DNA from: Ruminococcus sp.
GTDB lineage: Bacteria; Bacillota; Clostridia; Oscillospirales; Ruminococcaceae
Direction of reading: 5' to 3'
Assembly: GCA_017620025.1 (NCBI GenBank)
Contig: JAFZRF010000065.1
Span: 76,414 to 131,686, forward strand
Length of the DNA: 55,273 nt
The first letter of the stretch is position 1; each line of letters opens with the position of its first letter. This document shows positions 2,608 through 41,080 of this stretch, one piece after another. Position numbers and translations under genes: made by a program. The notes beneath the pieces were generated by a model. That model saw only the letters and a list, made by a program, of their open reading frames with translations, searched no databases and was not told the origin of the DNA.

Positions 2608-3885
2608 ATGAAAAAGCTGTTCAATGATGCGGTAAAGGAAATTAAGCGGGAGGAGCTCCCGGAGCTGAAAAGCTTCGTGAAATGGCTGTTTATCGGCTCT
2701 CTTGCAGGTATAGTCATCGGACTTACCGGAACCTTTTTCCATATCTGCTCCGGCACTGCCGAATCTCTCCGTGAGAAGCACCCCTGGCTGCTGCTCTGTC
2801 TGCCGCTGGCCGGCGCCTTCATATCGGTGTTCTATGATGCCATGCACTACAGCCACGACAAGGGTACCAACCTCGTGCTCCTTGCCGTGCGTGACAACAA
2901 GACCATGGGAATAAACCATGCGGCTTGTATATTCGTTGCCTCTGTAGCAACTCATCTCTGCGGCGGCTCGAGCGGACGAGAGGGTGCTTCCCTCCAGATA
3001 GGCGCTGCCCTCGGTTCTTTTGCCGGACGCAAGCTGCATTTCAACGACGACGACCGCCGTATCATGACCATGTGCTGCATGAGCGCCATGTTCGCTGCGG
3101 TGTTCGGTACCCCCGTGACTGCGGCGCTGTTCTCAATGGAGGTAATAAGCGTAGGCATTTTCTACTACTCCGCCATAGTGCCGTGTACTGTAGCAGCACT
3201 CACCGCAACCTATATCTCGTCGCTCTTCGGCATAACCCACCTCACCATGACGGTGGAGCTTCCCGCCGCTGCTCCGGCAGACTACCTGAAAACAGCCGTT
3301 CTCGGAGCGCTCTGTGCGGTGCTGAGCGTTATATTCTGTGCCTCGATGAGTCTCACTCTCAAGCTCTTCCGGAAGATAAAGAACCATATCCTACGTGCGC
3401 TGCTCGGCGGAGCAATCGTGATACTACTGACCTTCGCAGTAGGCAACTACAACTACAACGGCACCGGAGGCGCAATGATACTCAGGGCCTTTGAGGAGCG
3501 CCCCTTCGCGCTCGCCTTCGCTATCAAGCTGCTGTTCACCGTAGTTACGCTCTGCTCCGGCTATAAGGGCGGAGAGATATTCCCGGTGTTCTTTATCGGC
3601 TCCTCCTTCGGAAGCGTAATGTCAGCTCTTCTCGGTATGCCCGTATCAATGGGTGCCGCAGTCGGTATGACGGCTGTATTCTGCGGAGTGACGAACTGCC
3701 CCATAGCCTCCGTGATACTCAGCGTAGAGCTGTTCGGCGGACAGGGTCTCCCGTTCTTCATAGTGGCCTGCGCCGTAAGCTATATGCTCTCCGGCTACAG
3801 AGGCCTCTACAGCGAGCAGAGGATAGTGTACTCCAAGCTGAGGACAAAATTCATCAACCGCCGTATCGGTGACAAACCTGAATAA
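2608..3885 (+). CDS. ClC-family anion channel/antiporter, CLC-F-like
   Basis: A 425-residue polytopic membrane protein with the ClC selectivity-filter motif SSGREGASLQIG around residues 121-132; Glu125 matches the gating glutamate of ClC-ec1. About ten or more hydrophobic segments follow. The canonical GSGIP motif is absent (DKGTNLVL occupies that region), and the late filter motif reads KGGEIFPVFFIG rather than GGIFAP. Those two features resemble the CLC-F branch that exports fluoride, but this is inference. No separate ribosome binding site is seen; the ATG is one base after the DUF4317 stop, suggesting translational coupling. A strong terminator follows directly. Confidence 0.85.
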   Translation: MKKLFNDAVKEIKREELPELKSFVKWLFIGSLAGIVIGLTGTFFHICSGTAESLREKHPWLLLCLPLAGAFISVFYDAMHYSHDKGTNLVLLAVRDNKTMGINHAACIFVASVATHLCGGSSGREGASLQIGAALGSFAGRKLHFNDDDRRIMTMCCMSAMFAAVFGTPVTAALFSMEVISVGIFYYSAIVPCTVAALTATYISSLFGITHLTMTVELPAAAPADYLKTAVLGALCAVLSVIFCASMSLTLKLFRKIKNHILRALLGGAIVILLTFAVGNYNYNGTGGAMILRAFEERPFALAFAIKLLFTVVTLCSGYKGGEIFPVFFIGSSFGSVMSALLGMPVSMGAAVGMTAVFCGVTNCPIASVILSVELFGGQGLPFFIVACAVSYMLSGYRGLYSEQRIVYSKLRTKFINRRIGDKPE

Positions 3886-3893
3886 AAACACTG

Positions 3894-3913
3894 AGGACTG
3901 CCCCGGCAGTCCT
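3894..3913 (+). terminator. Rho-independent terminator after the ClC gene
   Basis: Arms AGGACTGC (3894-3901) and GCAGTCCT (3906-3913) with a CCCG loop, followed by TTGTTT. It ends the ispD-DUF4317-ClC transcript. Confidence 0.85.
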
Positions 3914-3976
3914 TTGTTTATCTCCTACAATCCCGGCAGAGCATTTTTGTAAAATCCGCCGAATCTGAAATCTGCC

Positions 3977-4018
3977 GATAAAAACTTGCCATTATTCTGA
4001 CATTTATATTACAGAAGC
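3977..4018 (+). promoter_or_regulatory. 42-bp box shared with the next dockerin gene; probable promoter
   Basis: This stretch aligns without gaps to 6234-6275 with 33 of 42 identical bases. The common parts are GATAAAAACT at the left and GACATTTATATnACAGAAGC at the right. A TTGCCA/TATTAC pair with a 16-base spacer is the likely promoter. The ATG follows 38 bases after the box. The same box before both genes implies shared control or recent duplication. Confidence 0.55.
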
Positions 4019-4055
4019 ACTTCTGATGTTTAACAATACTCAGGGAGGTATTATT

Positions 4056-6086
4056 ATGAAAACGAACGCAATCATCTCAATACTGTCATCTGCCACGCTA
4101 CTGACATCCGCTGCTGCATCAGTCTATGCATCAGCTGCAAGCATCACTCCTGCACCGGCGCCTGTATCAAATCTACAGACAACGTATGAAGCGACCTATC
4201 CACCGACATATCCTGTCGATGACTATGAGGATTTCACTATTCCCGAAAACTCCGGCCCGACAGGCCCTACGGAGCCGCCAACGAACGAGAACGGCACCCC
4301 CTACGTCTACGAGCCCGAAAAGATCTTTGTATATTACACTCCTGACACGCAAATGTGCAGCCTCGACTATTGGCTCAAAAACTATCCGGAGGAAGCAAAA
4401 ACGCAGACTAAACTGATCGTCCGCTATCAGCTTGCAAATATAGACGAAATAAGGGAGGAATGCGACAAGGCCGGAAGATCTATGCGTGATTCCGAGGACC
4501 CGTATTTCCTGCAGAGAACGGAAGGAATGACACAGAAGCTGAGCGAATGGTTCCCCGGTTACGGCTTTGATGATATCACAGATGCTCAGTTCAGATATAT
4601 TGTAGGCTATTCGGAAAAGTTCTATGAGTGTATCCAAAACGAAGGAAAGAGTTTCTGTACAGAGAACGGTCTGATCTTCTCCAAGGCCGATGCTCTGACC
4701 CCGCTGCCGTATTATATCGATGAGAACGACAATAAAATATATGATAATACGCCCGGATTCCCGTCTTCCTGGGACGGCGAAAACAGTGTCATCTATCCCG
4801 CTGATGACGGACGGAATCTCGGCGATACAATAGAGATCATCTGCAAAGGCACTTCCGGCGATGCAATAGCTGCCGCCGATGATGAGAATGTAAGCGCACT
4901 TGCGATCGATGTATACGGAACTGTGGACATTGTTGAAGACTACATTTCTGAACCTGAGCCGGCATACATTGATCCGTATATCGATACCATGCTTGCGAAT
5001 AATCCTGACGGATGCATGGTATATATCCAGGAAAGAAAAAAATCACATATTTTCATAAAATATCGCAATATCGCCACTATCGCTGATATCATGCGCACAG
5101 GCAATATGGCCGCCAGCTATTCATCAGGCGTCGAAGATATGCTTGAACTCCGTGACGAATGCAGGGCTATATCAGGTATATGTGAGAGAAACGGCATCAA
5201 AGGCGACAAACTCATTTCAAAAGACGACTATATCAAGGCCTTCCTTACCCGTGAGGAAATAGAAGCTGTTGCAAAGGACAAGGATGTATACACCATCTAT
5301 TCAGTTGAACAGCCCGAACGCCCGACTGAAGAAGGAACAAAAACGTGGACCGCTACAGAAGCAGCGACAGCCGCAGGACGTTCTCTTACAAAAGGCGATG
5401 CCAACTGCGACGGAAAGGTAACTGTAGCAGACTGCGTTGCAGTGCTCCAGTACATCGCCAATAAGGACAAATATCCCCTTTCCGCTGACGGCATCAGGAA
5501 CGCCGATATCGACGGTATCTCCGGCATAACCGGCGGAGATGCAATAGCTATCCAGAAAATCGATGCAGGTGTCGCAATAACTGCACGTACCCCTGAGGAA
5601 GAGTTCATCGATCTGCTTGTGGCTGATGATCCCGAATTCTCCGATCACGGCCTTATCTATGCGCCTGATCTGAAATACGACGCTGTACTCGGCGCCTGCA
5701 ACGGAAAGAGAGATGTGCTTATAATCTACGGTCCCAAATACCCTGATGACATAGAGGTAAAGACAGAAGCTTACTGGATGTATGAAGAATACTCCTTCTT
5801 TGAATGGGATTCCATCTTTACAAAGGATCAGATAAACTCCAAGGATTACCTCCTGAAAAATGACGGCGCAGTATGCTTCAACGGTGACATACTCAGTGTC
5901 AGCCCCTGGAACAGTGCAGCCCTGAAGCCCGACAGCGGTAAAGAGATCAGGATAGCTGTATTCATAGAAGGACTGCCCGTTGGAAAGTATCATCCCCCCG
6001 CAGGCTCGGAAAAATGGGGCATCAATGAATACAAGGAATATCTTTCAGAGCAGGACCGCATTGAAATCCCCACACACTACGCCTGA
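4056..6086 (+). CDS. Secreted dockerin protein with propeptide-inhibitor-like modules
   Basis: The start is taken at 4056 because AGGGAGG lies just upstream; an in-frame ATG at 4026 lacks a binding site. The 676-residue protein has a signal peptide (MKTNAIISILSSA... cleaved near SVYASA), a Pro/Thr-rich stretch, and two long modules ending in helix-strand pairs (VKGTSGDAIAAADDENVSALAID-like near 270-290 and LTREEIEAVAKDKDVYTIY near 395-415). That order resembles the beta-alpha-beta-beta-alpha-beta I9 fold of subtilisin propeptides (inference). A dockerin at about 447-506 (loops DANCDGKVTVAD and DIDGISGITGGD) is internal rather than terminal, and about 170 residues of unknown sequence follow it. 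The next gene has the same plan and the same upstream box. Confidence 0.8.
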   Translation: MKTNAIISILSSATLLTSAAASVYASAASITPAPAPVSNLQTTYEATYPPTYPVDDYEDFTIPENSGPTGPTEPPTNENGTPYVYEPEKIFVYYTPDTQMCSLDYWLKNYPEEAKTQTKLIVRYQLANIDEIREECDKAGRSMRDSEDPYFLQRTEGMTQKLSEWFPGYGFDDITDAQFRYIVGYSEKFYECIQNEGKSFCTENGLIFSKADALTPLPYYIDENDNKIYDNTPGFPSSWDGENSVIYPADDGRNLGDTIEIICKGTSGDAIAAADDENVSALAIDVYGTVDIVEDYISEPEPAYIDPYIDTMLANNPDGCMVYIQERKKSHIFIKYRNIATIADIMRTGNMAASYSSGVEDMLELRDECRAISGICERNGIKGDKLISKDDYIKAFLTREEIEAVAKDKDVYTIYSVEQPERPTEEGTKTWTATEAATAAGRSLTKGDANCDGKVTVADCVAVLQYIANKDKYPLSADGIRNADIDGISGITGGDAIAIQKIDAGVAITARTPEEEFIDLLVADDPEFSDHGLIYAPDLKYDAVLGACNGKRDVLIIYGPKYPDDIEVKTEAYWMYEEYSFFEWDSIFTKDQINSKDYLLKNDGAVCFNGDILSVSPWNSAALKPDSGKEIRIAVFIEGLPVGKYHPPAGSEKWGINEYKEYLSEQDRIEIPTHYA

Positions 6087-6138
6087 GCATAACACATAAA
6101 CACTTCCGCAGATCATTCTGCATAAAACTCCACCCGGC

Positions 6139-6162
6139 AAAGGGCTGCTCCGGCAGTCCTTT
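6139..6162 (+). terminator. Rho-independent terminator
   Basis: Arms AAAGGGCTGC and GCAGTCCTTT with one G-T pair and a TCCG loop, followed by GTTTATT. It closes the preceding dockerin gene. Confidence 0.85.
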
Positions 6163-6233
6163 GTTTATTCCGTACATTTCACACACCCCGCATTTGTGCA
6201 TTCATACAAAGATCATTTCTTTTTTTGATTTAC

Positions 6234-6275
6234 GATAAAAACTAAAGCCTTTTCCGACATTTATATAACAGAAGC
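6234..6275 (+). promoter_or_regulatory. Second copy of the 42-bp upstream box
   Basis: It is colinear with 3977-4018 (same length, 33 of 42 bases equal). The right half contains TATAAC as a possible -10. The AGGGAGGTAT ribosome binding site 46 bases downstream is also nearly the same as in the first gene. Confidence 0.55.
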
Positions 6276-6320
6276 GCCTGAGCGGTGCTCAGAATGACAT
6301 AATTACAGGGAGGTATACTT

Positions 6321-7598
6321 ATGAAAAACAATAAAGTATTATCAGCTATAATTGCAGCAGCAATGATAGCAACATCCGCAGCAGCCGTATATGCAAACGC
6401 AGCAGATCAGACAGACTCCGAAGCAGACCAGCCTGTTGCCTGCGCCTCGGAAACCTATCCCGACACAGCCGGCACCGATGCTCCCATGAAGCTTGCACAG
6501 CCGAAAATGCGCAGTCAGGAGCTCTGGGACTTCATGGATTCCGGAGAAGGTACACGCAGAATCTGCATTGCTCTCACACAGTCCGCCGACAACAGCATCT
6601 TCAATGATGCAGCGGCTCTTGCCGATGAAGAAATGCAGGGCATGGATATACCCGATGAGAACAGATACAACGAATACCGGAATAACATTATCCGTGAGTA
6701 TGTACTCTCTCATACCGCAGAGATAAAAGAAGAGATCATGGGAACCTTCACACAGAGGCACGAATTCAATGTCATCAGCACGGACACTGAAGCTATGAAG
6801 CTTACAGCAGAAGTAACGCCTGATATGCTGAAGGCAGTCCTCGATGATGATGTCGTGATTGCGGTAATTCCCGGCGAAACGGAAACAGCGGTAACTCCGG
6901 ATGAAACAGAAACAGAAGAGCCGATCAAGCTGATACAGCCTATCGTACTCTGCGATGAGCTCAGAGCTTTCCTCAATTCAGACGAAGCTTCAAAGGTCGT
7001 TATGATAGTGATCTCACAGAATACCGATGACAGTCTCTACGATGAAGCTGTAGCATACGCCGATGCCGAAATGGAGAAGAATAAGAGCAGTATGTCCAAT
7101 GAGGCAATGTACAACGACTACCATTCTGCAATGGTGCAGTTCTATATCAAAGAACACACCGCCGAGCAGAACCTCGCTGCAATAAATGCGTTCGCTCAGA
7201 AATACGGCGTTACAATATACAGCTATAACGAGAATACTCTTCATTTCACTACCGAGATAACTCCGGCCCAGCTGAATGAGATGCTCAAAGATGAAGATAT
7301 ACTCACCATTGCGCTGCCCAGCGATACTGTCAGCATAGAACCGACCACAGTTCCGATTATCGCCTCTCCGACTGTCTCCGCTCCCGTTGTCACGATCGGT
7401 GCTTCAATAAAGGGTGACGCTAACATCGACGGCAAGGTGACAGTAGCCGATTCTGTTACTGTTCTGCAGTACCTTGCCAATCAGGAGAAGTATCCCATGA
7501 CAGACGAAGCCGTTGAAAATGCCGATATCGACGGTGTTCCCGGCATCTCCGGCTCTGATGCCATCAGCATACAGCGTATCGACGCAGGTATCGACTGA
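6321..7598 (+). CDS. Secreted protein: two I9-like modules plus C-terminal dockerin
   Basis: A 425-residue protein with a signal peptide ending near VYANA, then two copies of a module of about 130 residues (about 56-184 and 202-333). Each copy has a beta strand (RRICIALTQ; KVVMIVISQ), a long charged insert containing a Y-N-x-Y motif, a helix, a strand (NTLHFTTE in copy 2), the helix ITPAQLNEMLKDED and a closing strand. This is the strand/helix order of the I9 inhibitor/propeptide fold; no protease domain follows, so a free-standing inhibitor is a reasonable inference. The dockerin (about 365-425) has loops DANIDGKVTVAD and DIDGVPGISGSD. It is followed by a terminator and then an HtrA protease. 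Confidence 0.85.
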   Translation: MKNNKVLSAIIAAAMIATSAAAVYANAADQTDSEADQPVACASETYPDTAGTDAPMKLAQPKMRSQELWDFMDSGEGTRRICIALTQSADNSIFNDAAALADEEMQGMDIPDENRYNEYRNNIIREYVLSHTAEIKEEIMGTFTQRHEFNVISTDTEAMKLTAEVTPDMLKAVLDDDVVIAVIPGETETAVTPDETETEEPIKLIQPIVLCDELRAFLNSDEASKVVMIVISQNTDDSLYDEAVAYADAEMEKNKSSMSNEAMYNDYHSAMVQFYIKEHTAEQNLAAINAFAQKYGVTIYSYNENTLHFTTEITPAQLNEMLKDEDILTIALPSDTVSIEPTTVPIIASPTVSAPVVTIGASIKGDANIDGKVTVADSVTVLQYLANQEKYPMTDEAVENADIDGVPGISGSDAISIQRIDAGID

Positions 7599-7658
7599 TA
7601 AAGTCGGCACGTTTTCATAAACTCCGCAGAGCATTTTCTGCCTCCTATATTACCCGAC

Positions 7659-7681
7659 AAAGGCTGCCCTGAGCAGCCTTT
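7659..7681 (+). terminator. Rho-independent terminator
   Basis: Perfect 9-bp arms AAAGGCTGC and GCAGCCTTT around CCTGA, followed by GCTTCTTATTT. The stem is close to the terminator at 6139-6162, in line with duplication of the two dockerin genes together with their flanks. Confidence 0.85.
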
Positions 7682-7897
7682 GCTTCTTATTTATAGTGGT
7701 GCTCTTTTAACACAGTTTTCACATTCTGTCACATTCCTTACATCTGTGTGAAAAAACATCCACATACTCTTCCGCAAAAAATAACAATTACTGCAAATTC
7801 ATTTCACACACGGCAAATATAATATAATCACAGGTTGAGGAAAAGACCTCAGCCGATAAGAATGATTTTTAAATTGCTGAAAAGGAGCAGTGATCTT

Positions 7898-9376
7898 ATG
7901 AATAACGAGTACAACAACGAATACAGATTCAATATTGAGGAAGTTGAGGGTACTGATAAGACCTCGGAGAGCTACACAGGTTTCAGCACTGATGATATGA
8001 AGCCTAAGAAGAAGCATACCGCTCTCAAGGCTATGGCAGGTATAATGGCACTTGCACTTGTATCCTTCGGATCCATCGAAGCTTACCGTGCAGTTGAGCC
8101 TTCTCTCACAAAGGGAGCTTTAACAGGCATAATCGCTGAAAGCGATACAACCTCAGCCGGCAGCAGCATCAAAGCTGATTCCATGAATATTTTCGCTACC
8201 AAGCCCGCAGGCGGCACAGCAATGGAGACAGAGGATATAGTAGACAAGCTTCTCCCCTCTGTTGTCGGTATCGAGTCCAAGTTCATAGTTGAGACAAGCA
8301 CAGGTAACAGCGGCGGATACTTTTTCGGATTCGACAGCATATTCGGTGGAAGCGATCCCTTCTCCGGCGGAAACAGCGGCAGCCCTCAGGTTGAGGAAGT
8401 TCCTGCAACAGGTACAGGCGTAGTCATCACAGACGACGGCTACATCGTTACTAACGCACACGTAATCTATGACACAGAGTACAGCGTAGGCGAAGCTACA
8501 AGCGTATCCGTTATACTCAGCGACGATACAAAGTACGATGCAGAGGTCGTCGGCTACGATGTTGAATGTGATCTTGCCGTACTGAAGATAGATGCAAAGG
8601 ATCTTACCCCTGCTGAGTTCGGCGACAGTGATTCACTCAGACTCGGCGAATCCGTAGTTGCTATCGGCAACCCGCTCGGCTTCGACCTCAAGAACACTGT
8701 TACAGGCGGCATGGTTTCCGGCCTTAACAGAAACATCTCTATCAACGACAAGACAATGACACTTATCCAGACCGATGCGGCTATCAACTCCGGTAATTCC
8801 GGCGGTCCGCTCATCAACAAGTACGGTCAGGTAATAGGCATAAACTCTTCCAAGATGAGCAATTCCTACAGCATGAACGAGGCATCCATCGAGGGTATCG
8901 GATTTGCTATCCCCTCCAATATAGTATCCAAGGTAGTTGACGATATCGTAGAGCTCGGCTACGTTGAAAAGCCTCAGCTCGGCATCAGCTGCCGTCCTGT
9001 AACTGAGGACATCGCTGAGATGTACAATATGCCCGTAGGCGTATATGTTATCGAAGCAAACGAAGGCGGTGCTGCTGAGAAGGCCGGTCTCAAGAAGGGC
9101 GACATCATCACAGCCATCGACGGAACAACAGTCAAGACTCCCGATGAGCTCACAAATGAGAAGAACAAGCACAACCCCGGCGATGTAGTTGAGATCACCT
9201 TCGTAAGAAACGGCGAGGAGCAGTCTGTAAAGCTCACACTCGGCAAGTCAGAACCCAAGGCTCAGAAGACCGAAGAGGCTGAGGAGACTGAGGAGTCCGA
9301 AAGAGACGAGAGAGCTGAGAAATTTGAAAGGATCGAAAGACCTGACAGAACAGACAGATCCGCGACTATAGATTAA
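7898..9376 (+). CDS. HtrA/DegP-like membrane serine protease with PDZ domain
   Basis: Start chosen at 7898 because AAAGGAG lies at 7881-7887; earlier in-frame ATGs lack a binding site. The 492-residue protein has a cytoplasmic N-terminus of about 40 residues, one membrane segment (about 43-63), a trypsin-like domain with the triad His188 (TNAHV), Asp225 (CDLAVLK) and Ser301 (GNSGGPL), and one PDZ domain (about 365-450). The tail is Glu/Arg-rich and low in complexity. HtrA proteases degrade or refold damaged proteins at the outer face of the membrane. A Gly/Ser/Phe-rich insert (about 135-165) before the protease domain is typical of Firmicute HtrA. A double TATAAT lies at 7818-7828. The gene follows two inhibitor-like dockerin genes. 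Confidence 0.93.
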   Translation: MNNEYNNEYRFNIEEVEGTDKTSESYTGFSTDDMKPKKKHTALKAMAGIMALALVSFGSIEAYRAVEPSLTKGALTGIIAESDTTSAGSSIKADSMNIFATKPAGGTAMETEDIVDKLLPSVVGIESKFIVETSTGNSGGYFFGFDSIFGGSDPFSGGNSGSPQVEEVPATGTGVVITDDGYIVTNAHVIYDTEYSVGEATSVSVILSDDTKYDAEVVGYDVECDLAVLKIDAKDLTPAEFGDSDSLRLGESVVAIGNPLGFDLKNTVTGGMVSGLNRNISINDKTMTLIQTDAAINSGNSGGPLINKYGQVIGINSSKMSNSYSMNEASIEGIGFAIPSNIVSKVVDDIVELGYVEKPQLGISCRPVTEDIAEMYNMPVGVYVIEANEGGAAEKAGLKKGDIITAIDGTTVKTPDELTNEKNKHNPGDVVEITFVRNGEEQSVKLTLGKSEPKAQKTEEAEETEESERDERAEKFERIERPDRTDRSATID

Positions 9377-27903: not shown

Positions 27904-28401
27904 ATGGATACACACGAAAGATATATGCGGCGGGCTCTTGAGCTTGCCGCAATTGCTGCCTCTGAGGGAGAAGTACCCGTCGGGGCAGTTGTAGTGAAGA
28001 AAACGACCGGCGAGATCGTCGGCGAGGGAAGGAACAGACGTGAGACCGCAAAGAACGCCCTTGCACACGCCGAGATAGAGGCTATCGATGCAGCCTGCCG
28101 GAAGCTCGGCGGCTGGAGGCTGCCCGACTGCGCCATATACGTCACTCTTGAGCCATGCCCGATGTGCTGCGGTGCGATCATCAACTCCCGCATCGATGAC
28201 GTGATATTCGGGGCAAGCGACTTCAAGAGCGGCTCGGCAGTATCAGTGCAGCGTATGTTCGAGCTGCCGTACAACTGGTTCCCGACCGTAACAGGCGGAG
28301 TGATCAGCGAGGAATGCTCCGGTATACTGAGCAGTTTCTTCCGCAAGCTTCGGCTTCAGCGCCGTCAGGAAAAGGAAACGGCCGGGCAGGAAGAAAATTA
28401 A
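27904..28401 (+). CDS. tadA: tRNA-specific adenosine deaminase
   Basis: TadA converts A34 to inosine in tRNA-Arg(ACG). The 165 residues have the zinc and catalytic motif His55-Ala-Glu57 and Cys85-Pro-Met-Cys88 (PCPMCCGAI), the EVPVGAVVV strand and the RMFELPYNWFP region. The ATG abuts the CPBP stop. The C-terminus is Lys/Arg/Gln-rich. The next gene is a tRNA with its own promoter. Confidence 0.93.
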   Translation: MDTHERYMRRALELAAIAASEGEVPVGAVVVKKTTGEIVGEGRNRRETAKNALAHAEIEAIDAACRKLGGWRLPDCAIYVTLEPCPMCCGAIINSRIDDVIFGASDFKSGSAVSVQRMFELPYNWFPTVTGGVISEECSGILSSFFRKLRLQRRQEKETAGQEEN

Positions 28402-28424
28402 AAGATAATTTTTATTGTTTTCTA

Positions 28425-28453
28425 TTGACAGCTTTTCGTTTTTCTGATATAAT
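28425..28453 (+). promoter_or_regulatory. Promoter of tRNA-Leu
   Basis: TTGACA, 17 bases, TATAAT, 27 bases before the mature tRNA 5' end. Confidence 0.9.
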
Positions 28454-28480
28454 ATTAAGGCAGTCAAATGAAGCTGCAAT

Positions 28481-28565
28481 GCGAGTGTGCTGGAATAGGC
28501 AGACAGGCACGTTTGAGGGGCGTGTGTCGACAGACGTATGGGTTCAAGTCCCATTACTCGCACCA
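28481..28565 (+). tRNA. tRNA-Leu (anticodon GAG)
   Basis: Seven-bp acceptor stem GCGAGTG/TACTCGC, D-loop TGGAATAGGCAGAC, anticodon stem CACGT/GCGTG around TTGAGGG (anticodon GAG, codons CUC/CUU), a long variable arm as expected for class II tRNA, T-arm ATGGGTTCAAGTCCCAT, and an encoded CCA end (28563-28565). Confidence 0.95.
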
Positions 28566-28569
28566 AGTC

Positions 28570-28592
28570 AGACCGGTCAGTGTGACCGGTCT
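28570..28592 (+). terminator. Terminator of tRNA-Leu
   Basis: Arms AGACCGGTCA / TGACCGGTCT around GTG, followed by TTCTTTTT. Confidence 0.93.
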
Positions 28593-28619
28593 TTCTTTTT
28601 GCTCATGCTCACACCGGCA

Positions 28620-28993
28620 AAGCCAGGATAATCAACACATCCGACTGATGCTAATCCAGATTTTTAATCATCAAATAAAGCATCGTTCTCAATCAAGCTA
28701 CAGAAGGTCAAATAATTATATCTGATGAACCGCTTGTTTGGCAACATTTTATACAATATTTATATAGTATATAAGCTTTAAGCAATTATAATACAGATTC
28801 AGCATTCTCACAAAAACATCAGATGTCGTATATATCCGTTTTGTGACGGAAACACAAGTGCGACCGCTCCATATATTTCTTGTGAGAATGTTTTTCTGTC
28901 TCTTTTGCTGTAATTAATTTGACTAACCGTGCCGATTTATTATCTATCATTCCCTTGTGTAAGTATTTTCTTGGTTTTAATACAGTTACGCAG
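28620..28993. other. AT-rich intergenic stretch before the polysaccharide cluster
   Basis: About 370 bases with no credible gene. It contains a perfect 11-bp inverted repeat (28803-28813 and 28880-28890) and TATA-rich sequence near 28745-28770. No integrase or second copy of the tRNA 3' end was found. Confidence 0.5.
28803..28890. repeat. Inverted repeat CATTCTCACAA / TTGTGAGAATG
   Basis: Eleven identical bases in inverted order with a 66-base spacer containing GTGAC/GGAAACAC. It could be a remnant of a small mobile element or a binding site; neither is shown. Confidence 0.5.
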
Positions 28994-29022
28994 TTGACAT
29001 GCTCACGAAATTGTGCTACACT
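28994..29022 (+). promoter_or_regulatory. Promoter of the polysaccharide cluster
   Basis: TTGACA (28994-28999), 17 bases, TACACT (29017-29022). It precedes the first glycosyltransferase by about 100 bases. All genes to 42196 face the same way with small gaps or overlaps, so this may drive the whole cluster. Confidence 0.7.
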
Positions 29023-29130
29023 ATTACTGTATATTGTTTCTTATTTGAATAGGCTTTTTTACAAACTAATATATATCGGTTAGCTATGCTGAAGTGTATA
29101 GTTAAACTTGAACCCGGAGGCAAACAGGTT

Positions 29131-30243
29131 ATGAAAAAAAGAATATTACATATCGCACAGGCTCCCGGCGGAGTCGAAAGATATCTGCATACTTTGTTAA
29201 GCAATATAGACAAAGAAAGATATGAAAATATTCTTGTATGTTCACAAGATTACGATATTGACTCCTTCAAGTCAATAACTGATTCCATTGTCGTGGTACC
29301 GATGTACAGAAATATCAGTTTACCGCAGGAAATCAGAACTGTCGTTAAATTAAGGCGTATAATAAAGAAATACTCACCTGACATAGTGTATTTACACAGC
29401 AGTAAAGCCGGAGCAGTAGGAAGAATTGCTGATCTTGGCATAAAGAACTATTGTATCTATAACGCTCATGGATGGGCGTTTAATATGAAATGCGGAAAGA
29501 AAAAGCAATTCATATATGCAGCCATCGAGAAGCTCCTCGCTCCGTTTTGCGATAAGATCATTGCTATCTCCGAATTTGAAAAGCAATCAGCTCTGAATCA
29601 TAAAATCTGCTCCAAGGATAAAATAAAGGTAATATATAACGGAGTAACTTCATCCTGCGACAATTCACATGATTCCTCACTTGCAGGCATTGTTCCTGAT
29701 GATGCATATGTTGTCGGGTTTGTAGGAAGAATATCCAAACAGAAAGCACCTGATGTTTTTATTAAATCCGCTGCAATAATAAAGAAAAAAATCAAAAATG
29801 CTTTCTTCATAATTGTAGGAGACGGCGAAGACCGTGAAAAACTCGAATCATTGATCAGCAATCTTGGCTTGAGCGGCAGTGTTCTCATTACCGGATGGAT
29901 CGATAATCCCGAAATCTATATCAAAAGGTTTGATATAGCGATGCTTCTGTCAAGATGGGAAGGCTTCGGGTTGGTACTGCCGGAATATATGCTGGCTAAA
30001 AAGCCTATTATAGCCACTAAAGCTGATGCGATACCAGAATTGGTACACAACGATGTAAATGGTTATCTCGTTGATATCGATGATTATTCATCAGCAGCTA
30101 AATATGCGATAATGCTGCATAATGATAAACAATTGGCTTCGAGATTAGCCTCTGCAGGTTATGACATCGCAATGTCAGATTTCACTTCAGAGCGCTTTGT
30201 AAAAAACCATGAAAAACTTTTCGAGGAGATAGTAAGATTATGA
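29131..30243 (+). CDS. GT4-family glycosyltransferase
   Basis: Start at MKKRILHIAQ (29131) because CGGAGG lies upstream; an in-frame ATG at 29086 lacks one. The 370-residue protein has the GT-B layout: N-terminal donor-independent half (APGGVERYLHTLL), and C-terminal GRISKQKAPDVFIKSA with the E-x7-E motif EGFGLVLPE near 285. Retaining GT4 enzymes move sugars from nucleotide-sugars to lipid-linked glycan at the cytoplasmic membrane face. Its stop overlaps the next ATG (ATGA). Confidence 0.92.
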   Translation: MKKRILHIAQAPGGVERYLHTLLSNIDKERYENILVCSQDYDIDSFKSITDSIVVVPMYRNISLPQEIRTVVKLRRIIKKYSPDIVYLHSSKAGAVGRIADLGIKNYCIYNAHGWAFNMKCGKKKQFIYAAIEKLLAPFCDKIIAISEFEKQSALNHKICSKDKIKVIYNGVTSSCDNSHDSSLAGIVPDDAYVVGFVGRISKQKAPDVFIKSAAIIKKKIKNAFFIIVGDGEDREKLESLISNLGLSGSVLITGWIDNPEIYIKRFDIAMLLSRWEGFGLVLPEYMLAKKPIIATKADAIPELVHNDVNGYLVDIDDYSSAAKYAIMLHNDKQLASRLASAGYDIAMSDFTSERFVKNHEKLFEEIVRL

Positions 30244-31415
30244 AGAAAGATGTTGCTATTTTGACAAAGTATTACAAGAATTACAACTATGGAGGAATGC
30301 TTCAAGGGTACGCTCTTCATAAAACGATCAGCAACATGGGGTATTCATGCGACATCATTTCATACGATGTCGGTTGTAACAAGAATCCTGTATATGGCTC
30401 ATTATTGGAACAATGCAAGCAGTACGGTTTATTGTCTGCAATCGAAAAAGTATCTGAAAAAGCTGTTGGCAAATGCAGTTTTTTCATAAAAGGCACACTT
30501 AACGGAAGAAGAAAACTATTTGATGAATTTGAAGCCGAAGCCGGTACTGATACAAGATATTACGACGACTCCTGTCTTAATGAACTGCCTGATGAATACA
30601 AGGTGTTTGTCAGCGGATCAGATCAAATATGGAATCCTAATGCTGTAAGATTGCTTTACCTTCAGAATTTCGTCAGCGAACACGAAAGAAAAATATCTTA
30701 TGCCGCAAGTATAGGCAGAGATTCTTTTTCAGATATCGAAGCAGACAAGCTCATTCCTTTCATTAAGGATTTCGGTCACATCAGTGTACGTGAAGAAACC
30801 GCAAAAAAGGTACTTGAACACTATATTTCAGATCCCATCACTGTTGTCCTTGACCCGACAATGCTCATTCCAAGAGATACATGGGCAGATGTAGCTTCCG
30901 AGCAGATCGTGAAAGAGAAATATGCGTTATATTATTCTTTCTCCGATTGCCTTGAGGTAAGAAGGCGGACTGCTAATTTCTGCCGCAAACATGGCTTGAA
31001 ACAGGTAATGATACCATTTGCAAAGCAGGAATTCAACATCAACGATAATATTGAAGATTGTTTAAGACTTGATAATGTCGGTCCGCGTGAGTTCCTTTCA
31101 GCAATAAAAAATGCTGATTTTGTTTTCACCGACTCTTTCCACGGTGCTGTATTCTCAATAATATTCAACAAGCAATTCGCCGTATTTGAAAGAAACAAAT
31201 CTGGTCATGTATCAATGAATTCAAGACTGTACGACCTTCTTGATACGTTCGGTCTCAGAGAAAGACTGGTTCAGTTCAATGATAACACTAAACTCCATCT
31301 TAAACTGATAAACTATAGCAATGTCAATGCTATACTGGAGAAAAGAAAAGCTGAATCTCTTGAATTCCTTTCAAATTCCATAAAAAACGGTATCGATAGT
31401 GCGGAGGGTATATGA
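30240..31415 (+). CDS. Polysaccharide pyruvyl transferase family protein (first copy)
   Basis: 391 residues with the family signature set: NYGGMLQGYALHKTI at the start, SGSDQIWNP near 120, RDTWADVASE, and TDSFHGAVFSIIF near 300. The family (CsaB/WcaK-like) adds pyruvate ketals from phosphoenolpyruvate to sugars of surface polymers. GAGGAG site 12 bases before the ATG. It overlaps both neighbours by four bases. The next gene is an FrhB-like iron-sulfur protein, a partnership repeated at 37386/39984. Confidence 0.9.
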   Translation: MKKDVAILTKYYKNYNYGGMLQGYALHKTISNMGYSCDIISYDVGCNKNPVYGSLLEQCKQYGLLSAIEKVSEKAVGKCSFFIKGTLNGRRKLFDEFEAEAGTDTRYYDDSCLNELPDEYKVFVSGSDQIWNPNAVRLLYLQNFVSEHERKISYAASIGRDSFSDIEADKLIPFIKDFGHISVREETAKKVLEHYISDPITVVLDPTMLIPRDTWADVASEQIVKEKYALYYSFSDCLEVRRRTANFCRKHGLKQVMIPFAKQEFNINDNIEDCLRLDNVGPREFLSAIKNADFVFTDSFHGAVFSIIFNKQFAVFERNKSGHVSMNSRLYDLLDTFGLRERLVQFNDNTKLHLKLINYSNVNAILEKRKAESLEFLSNSIKNGIDSAEGI

Positions 31416-32587
31416 TTTCAGCAGATGAAAAAAACTGTACCGGTTGCAGAGCGTGTGAGGCATCATGCCCTAAAGGCTGCATTTCAATAAAAGAAAACAA
31501 TAACGGTTTTCTCCTTCCGGAAGTGGATACCGAAAAATGCATCTCCTGTAATATCTGCAGCAAAATTTGCCCGGTCGAACATACTGAACGAAATGTTCCG
31601 CTTAAAGTATATGCCGCATATTCAAAGGCTGCTGCTCTGAAAAGCACCTCCGGCGGCGTTTTCTCCGTTCTTGCAAAACAGGTGCTTGATAATAACGGCA
31701 TTGTATACGGCACTGCTTTTTCCGAACATCTCGAAGCAGAAACAATACGCATAGACAGTATTAAAGAACTTGTCAGATTACAGGGGTCTAAATACGTTCA
31801 AGGAAATACTCGGGATACGTATAAACAAGTCTCAGCTGATCTGAAAACAGGATTGAGAGTCTTATACAGCGGCACTCCGTGTCAGATTGCAGGATTAAAA
31901 AAATACTTGAGAAGTACTGATACCTCACAGCTTATCACTGCCGAGATAATCTGCCACGGCGTTACATCTCCACAAATGTTCAAAGACTATATAGACTGGT
32001 ATGAAAAGCATAACAAATGCCGTATAAAGGATTATTCTTTCAGAGCAAAATCAAAAGAAAACGGCAGAGATTTTTGTTTCCTGGTTACAGATACTAAGGG
32101 AAATGCTCGCTTTTCTTCTGAATTCAAGGATCCATATAACAAAGCGTATATGTCTTCAGAATGGTTTAGGGAAGTATGTTATTCCTGCCCGTTTGCAGCT
32201 GAACAAAGAGTCGGAGACATCACACTCGGCGATTTCTGGAACGCAGATGCGCTTCCAAAAGGATTCGGCAAAAACAGAAGAGTTTCTGTTGTAATTATTA
32301 ACTCTGAATATGGAGATGCACTGTTTAACGACGTTAAGAGTCTTCTTATATTTACGCCATCATCATGGGAAGCCGCCAAAGCAGGCAATTCAAACCTTTT
32401 CAGGCCGACATCACGAAGTGTGAAAAAACAGAATTATGCTGAGCATAGAAACAATCCTCATTTTTTTGATGAACTCAGCGGACTTAAAGGCAGCATACCC
32501 AAATATGCTTTTAATCAGCTGCCGATGGATCTGAGAAGATCAATCAAAAAAACCGGTGCAGCATTAAAACATATTGTAAAGGGTTAA
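31412..32587 (+). CDS. FrhB-like oxidoreductase with two [4Fe-4S] motifs (first copy)
   Basis: 391 residues. The N-terminus holds two ferredoxin motifs (CTGCRACEASCP and CISCNICSKICP), followed by the F420 hydrogenase/dehydrogenase beta-subunit domains (STSGGVFSVLAKQVL, GTPCQIAGLKKYL, ICHGVTSP) and the Cys motif CYSCPFA...GDITLGDFWN. Methanogen relatives use coenzyme F420; no F420 genes are seen here, so a flavin-linked redox step on a sugar or polymer is more likely (inference). It overlaps the pyruvyl transferase gene by four bases. Confidence 0.88.
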   Translation: MISADEKNCTGCRACEASCPKGCISIKENNNGFLLPEVDTEKCISCNICSKICPVEHTERNVPLKVYAAYSKAAALKSTSGGVFSVLAKQVLDNNGIVYGTAFSEHLEAETIRIDSIKELVRLQGSKYVQGNTRDTYKQVSADLKTGLRVLYSGTPCQIAGLKKYLRSTDTSQLITAEIICHGVTSPQMFKDYIDWYEKHNKCRIKDYSFRAKSKENGRDFCFLVTDTKGNARFSSEFKDPYNKAYMSSEWFREVCYSCPFAAEQRVGDITLGDFWNADALPKGFGKNRRVSVVIINSEYGDALFNDVKSLLIFTPSSWEAAKAGNSNLFRPTSRSVKKQNYAEHRNNPHFFDELSGLKGSIPKYAFNQLPMDLRRSIKKTGAALKHIVKG

Positions 32588-32608
32588 TGGAAGGAGAAAT
32601 AATTAAGA

Positions 32609-33340
32609 ATGATTACCGTTAAGGATATTGCGAAAAAAACAATGTCAGAATCAAAGAAAGCATCAGCCAAGAATGACCTGTTCGCTTTCTATATAGGCAG
32701 ACCGCTGTCCTATGTGTTAACTATCCCGTTTCTATATACAAATATCAAGCCAAATACCATCACACTGTTTTCTGTCATTCCTACAGCAATCGGTTTTATT
32801 ATATCATGTTTTGCTGATTCAAAACCGGGAATGATACTCTGTTGGCTGATGTATTTTCTGTGGAATCTTCTTGACGGCGTTGACGGAAACGTTGCAAGAT
32901 ACAAACAACAGTTCTCAAAACTCGGAAGTGTATATGATGCTATGAGCGGTTATCTCGCAGCAGCACTCACCTTTTTTTCAACAGCAATTATGGCCGCCCA
33001 TTCAAATGGACTGCTTCTCAGAAACGGCCTTTTGAACACAGACGCTCTTATAATCATCGGCGGAATGTCAGCGCTCTTCAATATGTTCCCCAGACTTGTT
33101 ATGCATAAAGCAATAACAGAGCTTGGAAATAAAGATGACCTTTCTGAGGTTAATGACAAGAAGAATTACAGCATAGTAAAAATAATAGCACTTAACCTGA
33201 AATCTGCTGCCGGCGGTGCACAGGTATTAATGCTCGTCGCCATCATCGCCGGAATAACAGATATATATTCGGTTTGCTATTTGCTGTTTAATACATTGGT
33301 AATGCTTACATCTTTAAAGACTATATTAAAGGAGAAATAA
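32609..33340 (+). CDS. CDP-alcohol phosphotransferase family protein
   Basis: 243 residues, about six membrane segments. The family motif D1-x2-D2-G-x2-A-R-x8-G-x3-D3-x3-D4 is present as Asp89, Asp92-Gly93, Ala96-Arg97, Gly106 and Asp110, but the fourth aspartate, the supposed catalytic base, is Gly114 (VYDAMSG). Such enzymes move a phospho-alcohol from a CDP-alcohol to another alcohol in the membrane. The following TarI/IspD-like and epimerase genes suggest a locally made CDP-polyol as donor. GGAGA site upstream. Confidence 0.88.
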   Translation: MITVKDIAKKTMSESKKASAKNDLFAFYIGRPLSYVLTIPFLYTNIKPNTITLFSVIPTAIGFIISCFADSKPGMILCWLMYFLWNLLDGVDGNVARYKQQFSKLGSVYDAMSGYLAAALTFFSTAIMAAHSNGLLLRNGLLNTDALIIIGGMSALFNMFPRLVMHKAITELGNKDDLSEVNDKKNYSIVKIIALNLKSAAGGAQVLMLVAIIAGITDIYSVCYLLFNTLVMLTSLKTILKEK

Positions 33341-33344
33341 GAAT

Positions 33345-34061
33345 ATGAATATTGCAGTTATTATTGCAGGTGGTTCAGGTCACCGTATGGGTCAGGATAT
33401 CCCTAAACAGTTTATCAACGTCTATGATAAACCGGTTCTTATTTATACACTTGAAAGCTTCCAGCGTCATGCCCAGATAGATGCTATTGAAGTTGTATGT
33501 ATAGACGGATGGCACGATATTCTCTGGGCATATGCCAAGCAGTTCAATATCACAAAGCTGAAGTGGGTCGTTTCCGGAGGCAATACCGGTCAGGAATCTA
33601 TTCGTAACGGTGTATATAATCTTGAAGGAAAAGCTTCCGATGATGATATAATAATAATCCATGACGGTATCCGCCCTCTCGTTGAAGATGCTGTTCTTTC
33701 AGATGTTATTGTTAAATGCGGTCAGTACGGAAATGCAGTTACCTCTTTACCTTATAACGAGCAGATTTTCGTTGTTGATGATGATATTTCTACTGTAAAA
33801 TACATTCCCAGAGAAACACTCAGAAGAGTATCTACTCCTCAGGCATATAAATTCGGAAGATTGGATTCAGCTTACCATGAGGCTTTCGAGAAGGAAATAG
33901 GTATCTATGGTTCTTCCTATACTAACACTATGATGGTAGAGCTTGGAGAAAGACTTTACTTTGCAGCAGGCTCTGATAAAAACATCAAGCTTACTACAAA
34001 GGATGATCTCGAAATGTTCAAGGCATATATAAAAGCAGATAAAGATACCTGGTTAAAGTGA
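33345..34061 (+). CDS. IspD/TarI-family cytidylyltransferase
   Basis: 238 residues with the nucleotide loop IIAGGSGHRMGQDIPKQF, IIHDGIRPLVED and a late KLTTKDDLEMFKAYI. It resembles TarI-like ribitol-5-phosphate cytidylyltransferases as well as IspD. Since a housekeeping ispD lies at 772-1446, this copy more likely makes a CDP-polyol for the adjoining CDP-alcohol phosphotransferase. The product sugar alcohol is not known. Begins four bases after the previous stop with AAAGGAGAAATAA. Confidence 0.85.
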   Translation: MNIAVIIAGGSGHRMGQDIPKQFINVYDKPVLIYTLESFQRHAQIDAIEVVCIDGWHDILWAYAKQFNITKLKWVVSGGNTGQESIRNGVYNLEGKASDDDIIIIHDGIRPLVEDAVLSDVIVKCGQYGNAVTSLPYNEQIFVVDDDISTVKYIPRETLRRVSTPQAYKFGRLDSAYHEAFEKEIGIYGSSYTNTMMVELGERLYFAAGSDKNIKLTTKDDLEMFKAYIKADKDTWLK

Positions 34062-34069
34062 GGATTAAA

Positions 34070-35134
34070 ATGAGATTATTAAATAATGAACTGTATCGAA
34101 ATGACGTTTCTTCTGCCGCCTCCTGCAATATAGACTGGAGCAAACTAAAAGACTCTTCTATAGTTATTTCAGGAGCTACCGGTCTCATCGGAAGTTTTCT
34201 GATCGATGTAATAATGTGCAGGAACAGCAAAAATGATCTGAATTGCAGGATCATCGCACTTGGAAGGAACAAATCAAAGGCGGCTGAAAGGTTTGCAGAG
34301 TATATGGAGCATCCGCTCTTCCGATTCGTTGAATGCGATATATGCAGCATTGACGATATAGATATTGACGGCGATCTGGATTATTTTTTCCATGCCGCAA
34401 GCAATACACACCCTGTGGCTTACGCTACAGACCCCATAGGTACAATAACTGTTAATGTTATCGGTCTTAAAAATATGCTGGAGATCGCCCGTAAACACAA
34501 TTCAAAGCGCTTCCTTTTTGCATCATCCAATGAGATTTACGGCGAGAACCGCGGAGATACCGATAAATTCAAAGAGGACTACTGCGGATATATTAACTGT
34601 AACACATTACGTGCCGGCTATCCTGAGAGCAAAAGAGTATCTGAAGCGCTCTGTCAGGCTTATATCAAACAGTACGATATGGACATTGTTATTCCGCGTC
34701 TTACAAGATCGTTTGGTGCAACACTTCTCAGTTCTGACACAAAAGCGCTTTCACAGTTCCTGAAAAAGGGTGTAAACGGAGAAGACATCATTCTGAAGAG
34801 TGCCGGCTCCCAGTTATACTCCTTTACATATGTTGCCGACGCTGTTACAGGTGTTCTGTTCTGCCTTGCAAACGGTAATAAAGGAGAAGCATATAATATC
34901 GCAACTTCTTCATGTGATATTACGCTCAGGGAGCTTGCTCAGACCATTGCAGACTATGTTGGAACCAAAGTCATTTTCGAAATACCTGACAGTACGGAAG
35001 CAGCAGGCTATTCTGTTGTAACCAAAGCTCTTCTTGATGGTTCTAAAATAGAGGCACTTGGCTGGAAATCAGATTATGATATCAATAAGGGTATCGCTCA
35101 TACGATAGACATTTTGAAGATGATGGAGGATTGA
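34070..35134 (+). CDS. NAD-dependent epimerase/dehydratase (extended SDR)
   Basis: Start chosen at ATG 34070 with GAGG six bases upstream; a GTG at 34058 is an alternative that overlaps the previous stop. The 354 residues show the nucleotide loop SGATGLIG near 35, HAASNTHP, FASSNEIYG and the catalytic Tyr-Pro-Glu-Ser-Lys (YxxxK). Extended SDRs of this sort act on nucleotide sugars (4,6-dehydratase, decarboxylase or epimerase). The position directly after the cytidylyltransferase leaves open that the substrate is a CDP-linked or phosphorylated polyol. Confidence 0.88.
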   Translation: MRLLNNELYRNDVSSAASCNIDWSKLKDSSIVISGATGLIGSFLIDVIMCRNSKNDLNCRIIALGRNKSKAAERFAEYMEHPLFRFVECDICSIDDIDIDGDLDYFFHAASNTHPVAYATDPIGTITVNVIGLKNMLEIARKHNSKRFLFASSNEIYGENRGDTDKFKEDYCGYINCNTLRAGYPESKRVSEALCQAYIKQYDMDIVIPRLTRSFGATLLSSDTKALSQFLKKGVNGEDIILKSAGSQLYSFTYVADAVTGVLFCLANGNKGEAYNIATSSCDITLRELAQTIADYVGTKVIFEIPDSTEAAGYSVVTKALLDGSKIEALGWKSDYDINKGIAHTIDILKMMED

Positions 35135-35136
35135 TC

Positions 35137-36099
35137 ATGGATAAAGTGCTTACTATTTCTATCGCCGCCTATAATGTTGAGAAATATATCGAGCAGACAC
35201 TTGAATCAATATTAATACCTGAAATAATTGATAAGATAGAAATATTCGTTGTCGACGACGGAGGAAATGATAATACTCTCAGCATTGTTAAAAAGTATGC
35301 TGATCAATATCCGTCTTCCGTATTCCCTGTTCACAAAGAAAACGGCGGATACGGTTCAACCGTTTCATGGAGCGTAGAACACGCAAACGGAAAGTATTTC
35401 AAGCTTCTTGACGGCGATGACTGGTTCACATCAGAGAACCTTCCTGAACTTATAAAAAGAATGGAGAATTCTGATGCCGATGCCTTTGTAACAAATACAG
35501 CACAGGCTGTTGAAGGCGAAGGAAGCCATGATATGTATGACTTTATCCGTTCTCTTGACGGCAAAAAAATGAAGATAAGTGAAGCCGAGGTGAACCCTGT
35601 TGTTGCTATGTGGGCTTATGCGTTCAGGACTGATATCGTTAAGAGCAAGTTCCGTCCGCTTCCTCTTCACACGCTCTACACAGATCAGATCTTCGTTATG
35701 TATTCACTCAGCGGAGTGAATACCATTGAATATTTCGGAGATGTGATCTATAACTGGCGAATCGGTCGCGACGAGCAGAGCAACAGCCTCAAGAGTATTA
35801 CCAAACATTATCAGGAGCTCATCGATGTGGCTGATATAATCAGTGAATTCTATATGGAGTGCAAAAATGCAGGCGAAGCAGATAATCTGAAGTATATGCT
35901 CAAGAGAGCCGCAGCTTATTATTCAAATTCCATCTCCATGATTCTCAGACTTGATAAGACCAAGGAGAATAAAAAGATAATCACTGACTGGGAAGAGCGT
36001 ACAAAGAAGGATTTTCCTGATATCTATACCGCCTCTGCAGCTGCTAAGAAGCTTTCGCTTCTCAGAAAAACAAACTATATGGCTTACAAACTGATATGA
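35137..36099 (+). CDS. GT2-family glycosyltransferase
   Basis: Start at ATG 35137, six bases after GGAGGA. The 320 residues have the GT-A fold signs: SIAAYNVEKYIEQTLESI, VDDGGNDNT, ENGGYGSTVS and the metal-binding LDGDDWF near 95. Inverting GT2 enzymes add one sugar to the lipid-linked unit. The C-terminal third holds conserved aromatic stretches (YNWRIGRDEQS). No membrane segment. Confidence 0.92.
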   Translation: MDKVLTISIAAYNVEKYIEQTLESILIPEIIDKIEIFVVDDGGNDNTLSIVKKYADQYPSSVFPVHKENGGYGSTVSWSVEHANGKYFKLLDGDDWFTSENLPELIKRMENSDADAFVTNTAQAVEGEGSHDMYDFIRSLDGKKMKISEAEVNPVVAMWAYAFRTDIVKSKFRPLPLHTLYTDQIFVMYSLSGVNTIEYFGDVIYNWRIGRDEQSNSLKSITKHYQELIDVADIISEFYMECKNAGEADNLKYMLKRAAAYYSNSISMILRLDKTKENKKIITDWEERTKKDFPDIYTASAAAKKLSLLRKTNYMAYKLI

Positions 36100-36121
36100 C
36101 GGTTCTTAAAGGGGGAACCAG

Positions 36122-37348: not shown

Positions 37349-37385
37349 TTATAAAGGATACTGACAGATAAAACGGAGGAATAGA

Positions 37386-39937: not shown

Positions 39938-39983
39938 TATCCTTTTTTGACAGATATCAGCAAAATGTATCGGAGTGAGAATA

Positions 39984-41063: not shown

Positions 41064-41080
41064 AATGCGGAGGTAAATAT

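Follow-up and report, generated by a model that had tools for sequence, protein, structure and literature searches.

The window analyzed here is a stretch of 55,273 nucleotides from a Ruminococcus sp. (GenBank assembly GCA_017620025.1, contig JAFZRF010000065.1, positions 76,414 to 131,686; G000:C12:76414-131686 in our numbering), whose 2.7 Mb genome is dockerin-rich and has an estimated completeness of 75.9%. Two adjacent genes in the window encode proteins A and B, each with a signal-like N-terminus, two long modules, and a dockerin. Profile comparisons support the view that B's modules are homologous to a family containing prosegments of S8 (subtilisin-type) proteases, through either descent from these prosegments or a common ancestor. 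An initial annotation of the window had described two dockerin proteins with paired modules beside an HtrA protease; the coordinates, the dockerins, the duplication in B, and the HtrA were all confirmed. The two proteins are built as follows (aa, amino acids; E, expectation value):

4056..6086, + strand: protein A, 676 aa from the ATG at 4056, with a signal-like N-terminus, two modules, a dockerin, and a C-terminal domain
4359..4946, + strand: module A1, which contains internal insertions and matches the module family weakly by profile
4959..5318, + strand: module A2, with a profile match of moderate strength to the module family (its last half)
5391..5570, + strand: dockerin of A; Pfam Dockerin_1 E 0.0039, below cut-off; 46% identical to residues 309-424 of B
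5589..6083, + strand: C-terminal domain of A, whose family is related to domains that come second in single-module dockerin proteins elsewhere
6321..7598, + strand: protein B, 425 aa, with a signal-like N-terminus, two modules, a linker, and a dockerin
6483..6887, + strand: module B1, a duplicate of B2
6924..7322, + strand: module B2, a duplicate of B1
7410..7592, + strand: dockerin of B; Dockerin_1 E 0.0015 (below cut-off), 5m2o_B E 1.5e-7

B1 and B2 are duplicates of one module of ∼130 aa (30% identity over 133 aa, E 1e-24). The two modules of A are recognized by profile only; pairwise BLAST found no similarity between A2 and B2 or between the A1 region and A2. No Pfam model, that of I9 included, claims the modules of either protein, Pfam matches no serpin in A or B, and its few further matches on B are unrelated and below cut-off. 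As the initial annotation had maintained, neither protein has a protease domain by Pfam or NCBIfam, and when NCBIfam was applied to A, B, and HtrA, it named HtrA only.

The dockerin of B resembles the solved Group I dockerin chain 5m2o_B (E 1.5e-7), and through its dockerin end B matches 82 other genome places at E<=0.01. Assignment to the dockerin family (PF00404) thus follows for B from 5m2o_B and many genome dockerins, and for A from its likeness to B. Both proteins look secreted, each beginning with a lysine/hydrophobic signal-like stretch (judged by eye), and their dockerins would be expected to dock on cohesins. Protein A has a third domain, 3' of the dockerin in the gene, which was absent from the initial annotation. 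A hidden Markov model (HMM) of seven second domains from single-module dockerin proteins matched, at E 1.1e-7, the ortholog of A (P0009) in the nearest relative found with the same locus (genome G136, contig CAMKMD010000077.1 or G136:C77, locus L091; hereafter the sister). The C-terminal domain of P0009 is 47.8% identical to that of A, and the HMM did not match A itself up to E 10.

A profile of B1 and B2 found a clear relative in the sister only, among 125 genomes of the genus. Its match in G128 (E 0.002) was marginal with a stop inside, and a match at L032 in the first search for relatives (E 0.003) lay inside another kind of gene and was taken as chance. The wider family was gathered from an extra N-terminal module of a protein of the sister, which led to module proteins in G117 and in the sister and then to a profile of eight rows (A3). 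This unnamed module/S8 prosegment family is defined here by alignment A3, and two of the three S8 proteins of the genus described below were in the profile that first gathered it. Across the genus the A3 profile gave 46 match rows (eight being the profile's own sequences) in 30 of 125 genomes, and across the order 16 match rows besides its own in 12 other genomes of a 394-genome sample. Only two of 398 genomes matched in a phylum sample, one being the window's own genome and the other a short weak match, which suggests that the family is limited to the order. Viral contigs held no relative, a contig scan returned only contig CAMKMD010000077.1 of the sister, and none of the family modules tested is claimed by a Pfam model.

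The link to proteases comes from the company that the family keeps. In other genera of the order, 14 of the 16 matches share an open frame with an S8 subtilase domain, and the module is N-terminal of S8 (L203-L209, L211, L212, L214-L218; the module match is partial at L214, and L209 covers part of S8 only). The two others, L210 and L213, lack S8, and L210 has a weak dockerin. Within the genus, three S8 proteins carry this prosegment (G117:C51, G081:C71, and G107:C25; the dockerin-S8 proteins L100, L150, and L182) and also match ricin-type lectin and dockerin models, partly below cut-off. Because PF00082 is present in 48 of the 125 genus genomes, most S8 proteins of the genus must carry other N-termini. 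The initial annotation had counted consistent fusion of relatives to enzymes unrelated to proteolysis as evidence against its reading; the fused enzymes that were found are proteases. Protein A and protein B have no protease in the same protein and are free relatives of the family. As a separate observation, in the S8 domains of L100, L150, L203, and L212, the expected catalytic aspartate reads E (IYETA, IYETS, IEAGI, and LETGR, respectively), with the His and Ser motifs kept (pattern and eye).

Four B-type modules (B1, B2, and two of the sister) were compared as a profile with 29 family modules, from which the sister's ortholog of B was excluded, its N-terminal module being part of A3. The hhalign probability was 95% (E 3e-8, score 49.5, 124 columns), with scores of at most 14.6 for 60 column shuffles and 11.5 for the reversed profile, and it was still 94% once the three genus S8 prosegments were removed from the family. 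An HMM of the other 26 modules recovered these three prosegments at E 2e-13 to 1e-15 in a small protein set from 25 loci. Module A2 matched the family at 68% (E 4.7e-5, score 31.1 vs. 10.9 for the best of 30 shuffles; 45% without B in the profile), and A1 at 15% over 112 columns (score 23.9 vs. 11.7 for the best of 30 shuffles; 6% without B). The sister's ortholog of B matched the family HMM at 8.8e-15 as a whole, mainly via its N-terminal module. Matches of one later HMM on B are not independent, as that model contains B's modules. In a tree of 47 modules, S8 prosegments fall on one side of a supported branch and the B-type modules elsewhere on a long branch, around which the tree program warned of long-branch effects.

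The initial annotation had likened the modules to I9 (subtilisin propeptide) inhibitors from the order of their strands and helices. What holds of this is the placement of B in an S8 prosegment family, with 14 of the 16 order matches on S8 proteins; what is not supported is membership in I9 itself. The Pfam I9 model (PF05922) matched neither A nor B at E<=1 and none of eight S8 and eight free-module proteins tested. Classical lactocepin-type prosegments aligned to the module family at 9-15%, in the last 26-28 columns only, and the one comparison checked against shuffles scored above all 60 of them; these prosegments matched this family's S8 prosegments alone at 0.6% and B's modules at 0.4%. 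From the profile results, the modules appear homologous to the S8 prosegment family and I9-like in element order, with membership in I9 unsupported. A crude propensity profile of the module reads strand, long helical stretch, strand, helix, strand. A search of solved structures with the module profile returned ten chains at E<=10, of which the best match, HeliScrew4 (E 1e-4, 20 positions), was taken as chance, and the same search with one S8 N-terminal part found nothing significant.

Gene neighborhoods in the genus place free modules close to S8 proteases and to sigma factors. Next to each of the three dockerin-S8 genes, in the same orientation and at distances of 15, 171, and 373 bp, lies a free-module gene, and all three neighboring proteins have a dockerin match, one below cut-off. 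At L083 and L200 (near copies of each other), L184, and L195, a module gene lies 3' of an extracytoplasmic function (ECF) sigma factor gene and one further gene; at L101 it follows a sigma-70 region 2 gene and a DUF4367 gene. By position, the second genes after the sigma genes would be anti-sigma factors, and among those tested, Pfam names the DUF4367 one only. At L100, in G117, the gene directly after the ECF sigma gene itself encodes a 312-aa protein that has a membrane-like segment (by eye) and ends in a module at its C-terminus.

Two further loci have unusual layouts. On the minus strand of L196 (G029:C10, positions 3385-5778), one frame holds an ECF sigma part, a membrane-like segment, a second signal-like stretch, a module, and a dockerin, and is either a genuine fusion or a pair of genes with no stop separating them. 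At L083 (G000:C29:36000-46718), which also lies in the genome of the window, five small dockerin-like proteins are encoded between two ECF sigma genes, both accompanied by a further gene; a family module is present in one of the five. G136:C26 of the sister matches part of this stretch at 94-99% identity, and the module gene there has a dS (synonymous substitutions per synonymous site) of 0.008.

At the sister locus, three dockerin genes precede HtrA. The first encodes 609 aa and has no clear partner in the window, the second and third are orthologs of A (38.7% identical) and B (44% identical, with three modules). Divergence is uneven along the locus. Upstream, the IspD gene, the gene of the 376-aa protein, and the channel gene are 94-95% identical to those of the sister (dS 0.67-0.70). 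The dockerins of A and B are 69-77% identical (dS 0.81-0.90) and the C-terminal domain of A 48%, whereas the modules are 29-45% identical, with dS saturated (2.4-2.6) or not computable. Saturation of dS in the modules, but not in the dockerin parts of these genes, points to modules having been replaced or shuffled in addition to changing fast. Raised divergence extends into HtrA (about 74-76% identical, 74% from the ATG at 7898, and 81% over protease and PDZ; dS 0.97) and the methyltransferase (77%, dS 1.52); EF-Tu is 100% identical. The module-dockerin protein on C29, 98-99% identical in the sister, was considered as a slow baseline for A and B and rejected: its dS of 0.008, against 0.67-0.70 for the flanking genes, reveals recent exchange or contamination.

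The gene order around A and B is, 5' to 3', IspD, the 376-aa protein, a chloride channel, A, B, HtrA, a methyltransferase, and EF-Tu. HtrA is named from Pfam; we take the names IspD, chloride channel, methyltransferase, and EF-Tu from the look of their sequences. The remaining features near A and B are as follows:

7835..9376, + strand: HtrA-type serine protease with a PDZ domain, 513 aa from a TTG
3999..4018, + strand: upstream element GACATTTATATTACAGAAGC before A, promoter-like and common to A and B
6256..6275, + strand: upstream element GACATTTATATAACAGAAGC before B, promoter-like and common to A and B

Pfam confirms HtrA (Trypsin_2 E 4e-36, and PDZ), and the ATG at 7898 is probably a better start than the TTG at 7835. 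The 20-base upstream element has two exact copies in the window, against 0.01 expected with up to three mismatches, and at that tolerance four sites genome-wide, compared with none for a control pattern. The other two sites (G000:C58:13365 and G000:C28:8895) lie one before a leucine-rich-repeat-type gene (by eye) and one between a sigma-70 region 2 gene and the next gene. Elsewhere in the window, positions 28000-42000 have a GC fraction of 0.38-0.43, compared with ∼0.5 around them, and contain glycosyltransferase- and capsule-like genes (labels by eye); this run is possibly an acquired surface-polysaccharide cluster.

HtrA had been proposed earlier as a target of the two proteins, or else a mere neighbor, in an arrangement that homologs might conserve. 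The adjacency is kept in the sister (L091) and at none of the other loci compared. HtrA matched in 57 of 60 sampled genus genomes, and among 20 other HtrA loci that were fetched, several of them cut short by contig ends, neither profile found a module gene at E<=1. Dockerin genes, on the other hand, stand beside HtrA at six of these 20 loci (L065, L066, L067, L069, L071, and L073), so dockerin genes may repeatedly land next to HtrA. To our knowledge, prosegment inhibitors have no known action on the trypsin fold of HtrA. With no module gene at the 20 other loci, HtrA looks like a mere neighbor, and we consider it very improbable that A and B act on this protease, of trypsin fold rather than S8, as inhibitor or adaptor, despite the adjacency shared with the sister.

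We lean slightly toward the interpretation that A and B are secreted, dockerin-anchored proteins whose prosegment-derived modules serve as multi-headed decoys that bind S8 proteases. The dockerin would anchor A and B on the cell surface or on a scaffoldin, and the modules would each dock in the substrate groove of a subtilisin-type protease in the way of a prosegment. Docking would inhibit the protease and thereby shield the cellulosome and surface proteins. The likely targets would be S8 proteases made by other organisms that share the habitat, not HtrA; less likely ones are the cell's own two long S8 proteases. These have another N-terminus and contain PA and fn3_5 domains; each matches a cell-wall anchor, in one case below cut-off, and I9 is matched weakly by one of them (E 0.005, again below cut-off). 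We take both to be lactocepin-like. Fast change or exchange of modules next to a better-conserved dockerin would fit a contest with changing proteases.

Several observations weigh against this interpretation. Export, docking, and protease inhibition by A and B, the targets, and the fold are all things that we infer, and the likeness of the modules to classical I9 is not significant. Plain HMM matches on B are weak (domain E 0.008 for B2 and 17 for B1, per 1000 sequences), as is the match of A1, and the B profile reaches only 1.6% against the three genus S8 prosegments alone, so the link runs through the wider family. The S8 prosegment module stops at the start of the catalytic domain and the modules of A and B run into a linker. 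S8 prosegments cluster apart from B's modules in the tree, and thus a change of function after their separation is possible. No S8 protein with this prosegment was found in the window's own genome (75.9% complete), where the A3 profile finds only the C29 protein, and 22 of the 25 module loci (4-16 kb each) lack S8 by a narrow S8 model. Last, the sigma-factor operon setting of several module genes also fits sensing.

A modest chance belongs to this sensing alternative, in which modules are not inhibitors but recognition ectodomains that put a prosegment-like fold to new use, to sense or bind extracellular proteins or peptides, and the adjacent ECF sigma and membrane protein genes are the read-out. 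The 312-aa module protein directly after the ECF sigma factor in G117 speaks for it, as do the module genes after sigma genes at L083/L200, L184, L195, and L101. However, A and B themselves are outside such an operon, the prosegment relatives have by position a protease-binding role, and the G117 locus also has a free module-dockerin gene and, 373 bp on, an S8 protease. The drift of spacer or adhesion domains is an unlikely account: the modules would be fast-drifting, and their divergence would stem from recombinational replacement at a variable spot rather than from a contest with proteases. Saturated module dS next to dockerins at 0.81-0.90 and an upstream flank at 0.67-0.70 suggests replacement or shuffling, and the raised dS of HtrA and the methyltransferase (0.97 and 1.52) is in keeping with it; against it, the pattern of the modules persists across 124 columns in the comparison with a family containing S8 prosegments. 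Free modules could also be split-off prosegment chaperones that help the adjoining S8 protein to fold in trans, with A and B as distant leftovers. In mesophilic bacterial subtilases, the propeptide is described as having a chaperone as well as an inhibitor role (PMC10580911), and all three genus S8 genes with this prosegment have a free-module neighbor. We find this quite unlikely, as those S8 proteins retain a prosegment themselves, no S8 gene lies beside A and B, and most module loci lack S8 under the narrow model (22 of 25).

The decoy interpretation may be extended, tentatively and as a rather improbable whole, to a protease-control circuit in Ruminococcus of the kind arranged in G117, formed after the S8 prosegment family split from its proteases. 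Its parts would be an ECF sigma factor paired with a membrane regulator whose module is displayed outside, free modules that are joined to dockerins and inhibit at the surface, and an S8 protease that has both a dockerin and this same prosegment; A and B would be a fast-diversifying branch directed against foreign proteases. If decoy binding is true, prosegment-derived modules on dockerins would form another class beside serpins, Dpi, and cyspin. The family occurs in 30 of the 125 genus genomes searched, or about one in four, and the interpretation would explain a set of dockerin proteins of so far unassigned role and link cellulosomes, proteolysis, and sigma-factor signaling. In the portions covered of the open-licence literature on dockerins/cellulosomes and on free propeptide-like inhibitors, no description of prosegment-like modules on dockerins was found.

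The closest functional parallels are dockerin-borne inhibitors. Serpins have a fold unrelated to the prosegment-like modules and act by a suicide mechanism, and A and B, unlike dockerin serpins, have no Pfam serpin match. What A and B as proposed would share with dockerin serpins is a secreted protease-inhibitor domain joined to a dockerin. According to the available excerpts, PinA of Clostridium thermocellum, a dockerin-borne serpin, inhibits subtilisin-like proteases (PMC12484212, PMC2721979, PMC5301203), and Ruminococcus flavefaciens FD-1 has serpin-dockerins (PMC2721979, PMC5301203). Dpi of C. cellulolyticum (a dockerin with an inhibitor) and cyspin of C. cellulovorans (a cellulosomal inhibitor) are proposed, in the passages seen, to protect cellulosomal enzymes (PMC12484212, PMC4305082); cyspin targets cysteine proteases, and both are compared with A and B here by description only. 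A regulatory parallel is offered by RsgI-type anti-sigma factors with extracellular carbohydrate-binding modules, where, as far as the excerpt extends, the same kind of module occurs on a membrane regulator and on secreted proteins, as in G117 (PMC12484212). Unlike RsgI, the module here is prosegment-like and the sigma factor of ECF type, and the module-bearing regulator is in one genome and absent at the window's locus.

Stand-alone propeptide-like inhibitors of subtilisins are closer in the domain itself. SUB1-ProM, TgMIC5, POIA1, the yeast peptidase B inhibitor, and Arabidopsis SPI-1 are named in the consulted section of PMC6993865, and like the modules here, each is a free prosegment-like domain, SUB1-ProM being encoded beside subtilase genes. 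Those named are eukaryotic, and that section mentions no dockerin (PMC6993865). The modules here differ from them in their length (∼130 aa) and in extra residues between the first strand and the rest. The nearest relatives are the S8 prosegments of the order and the dockerin-S8 proteins L100, L150, and L182, which are predicted by HMM and profile to be homologous to the module family. In these, the prosegment is attached to its own protease, whereas the modules of A and B are free, paired in each protein, and joined to a dockerin.

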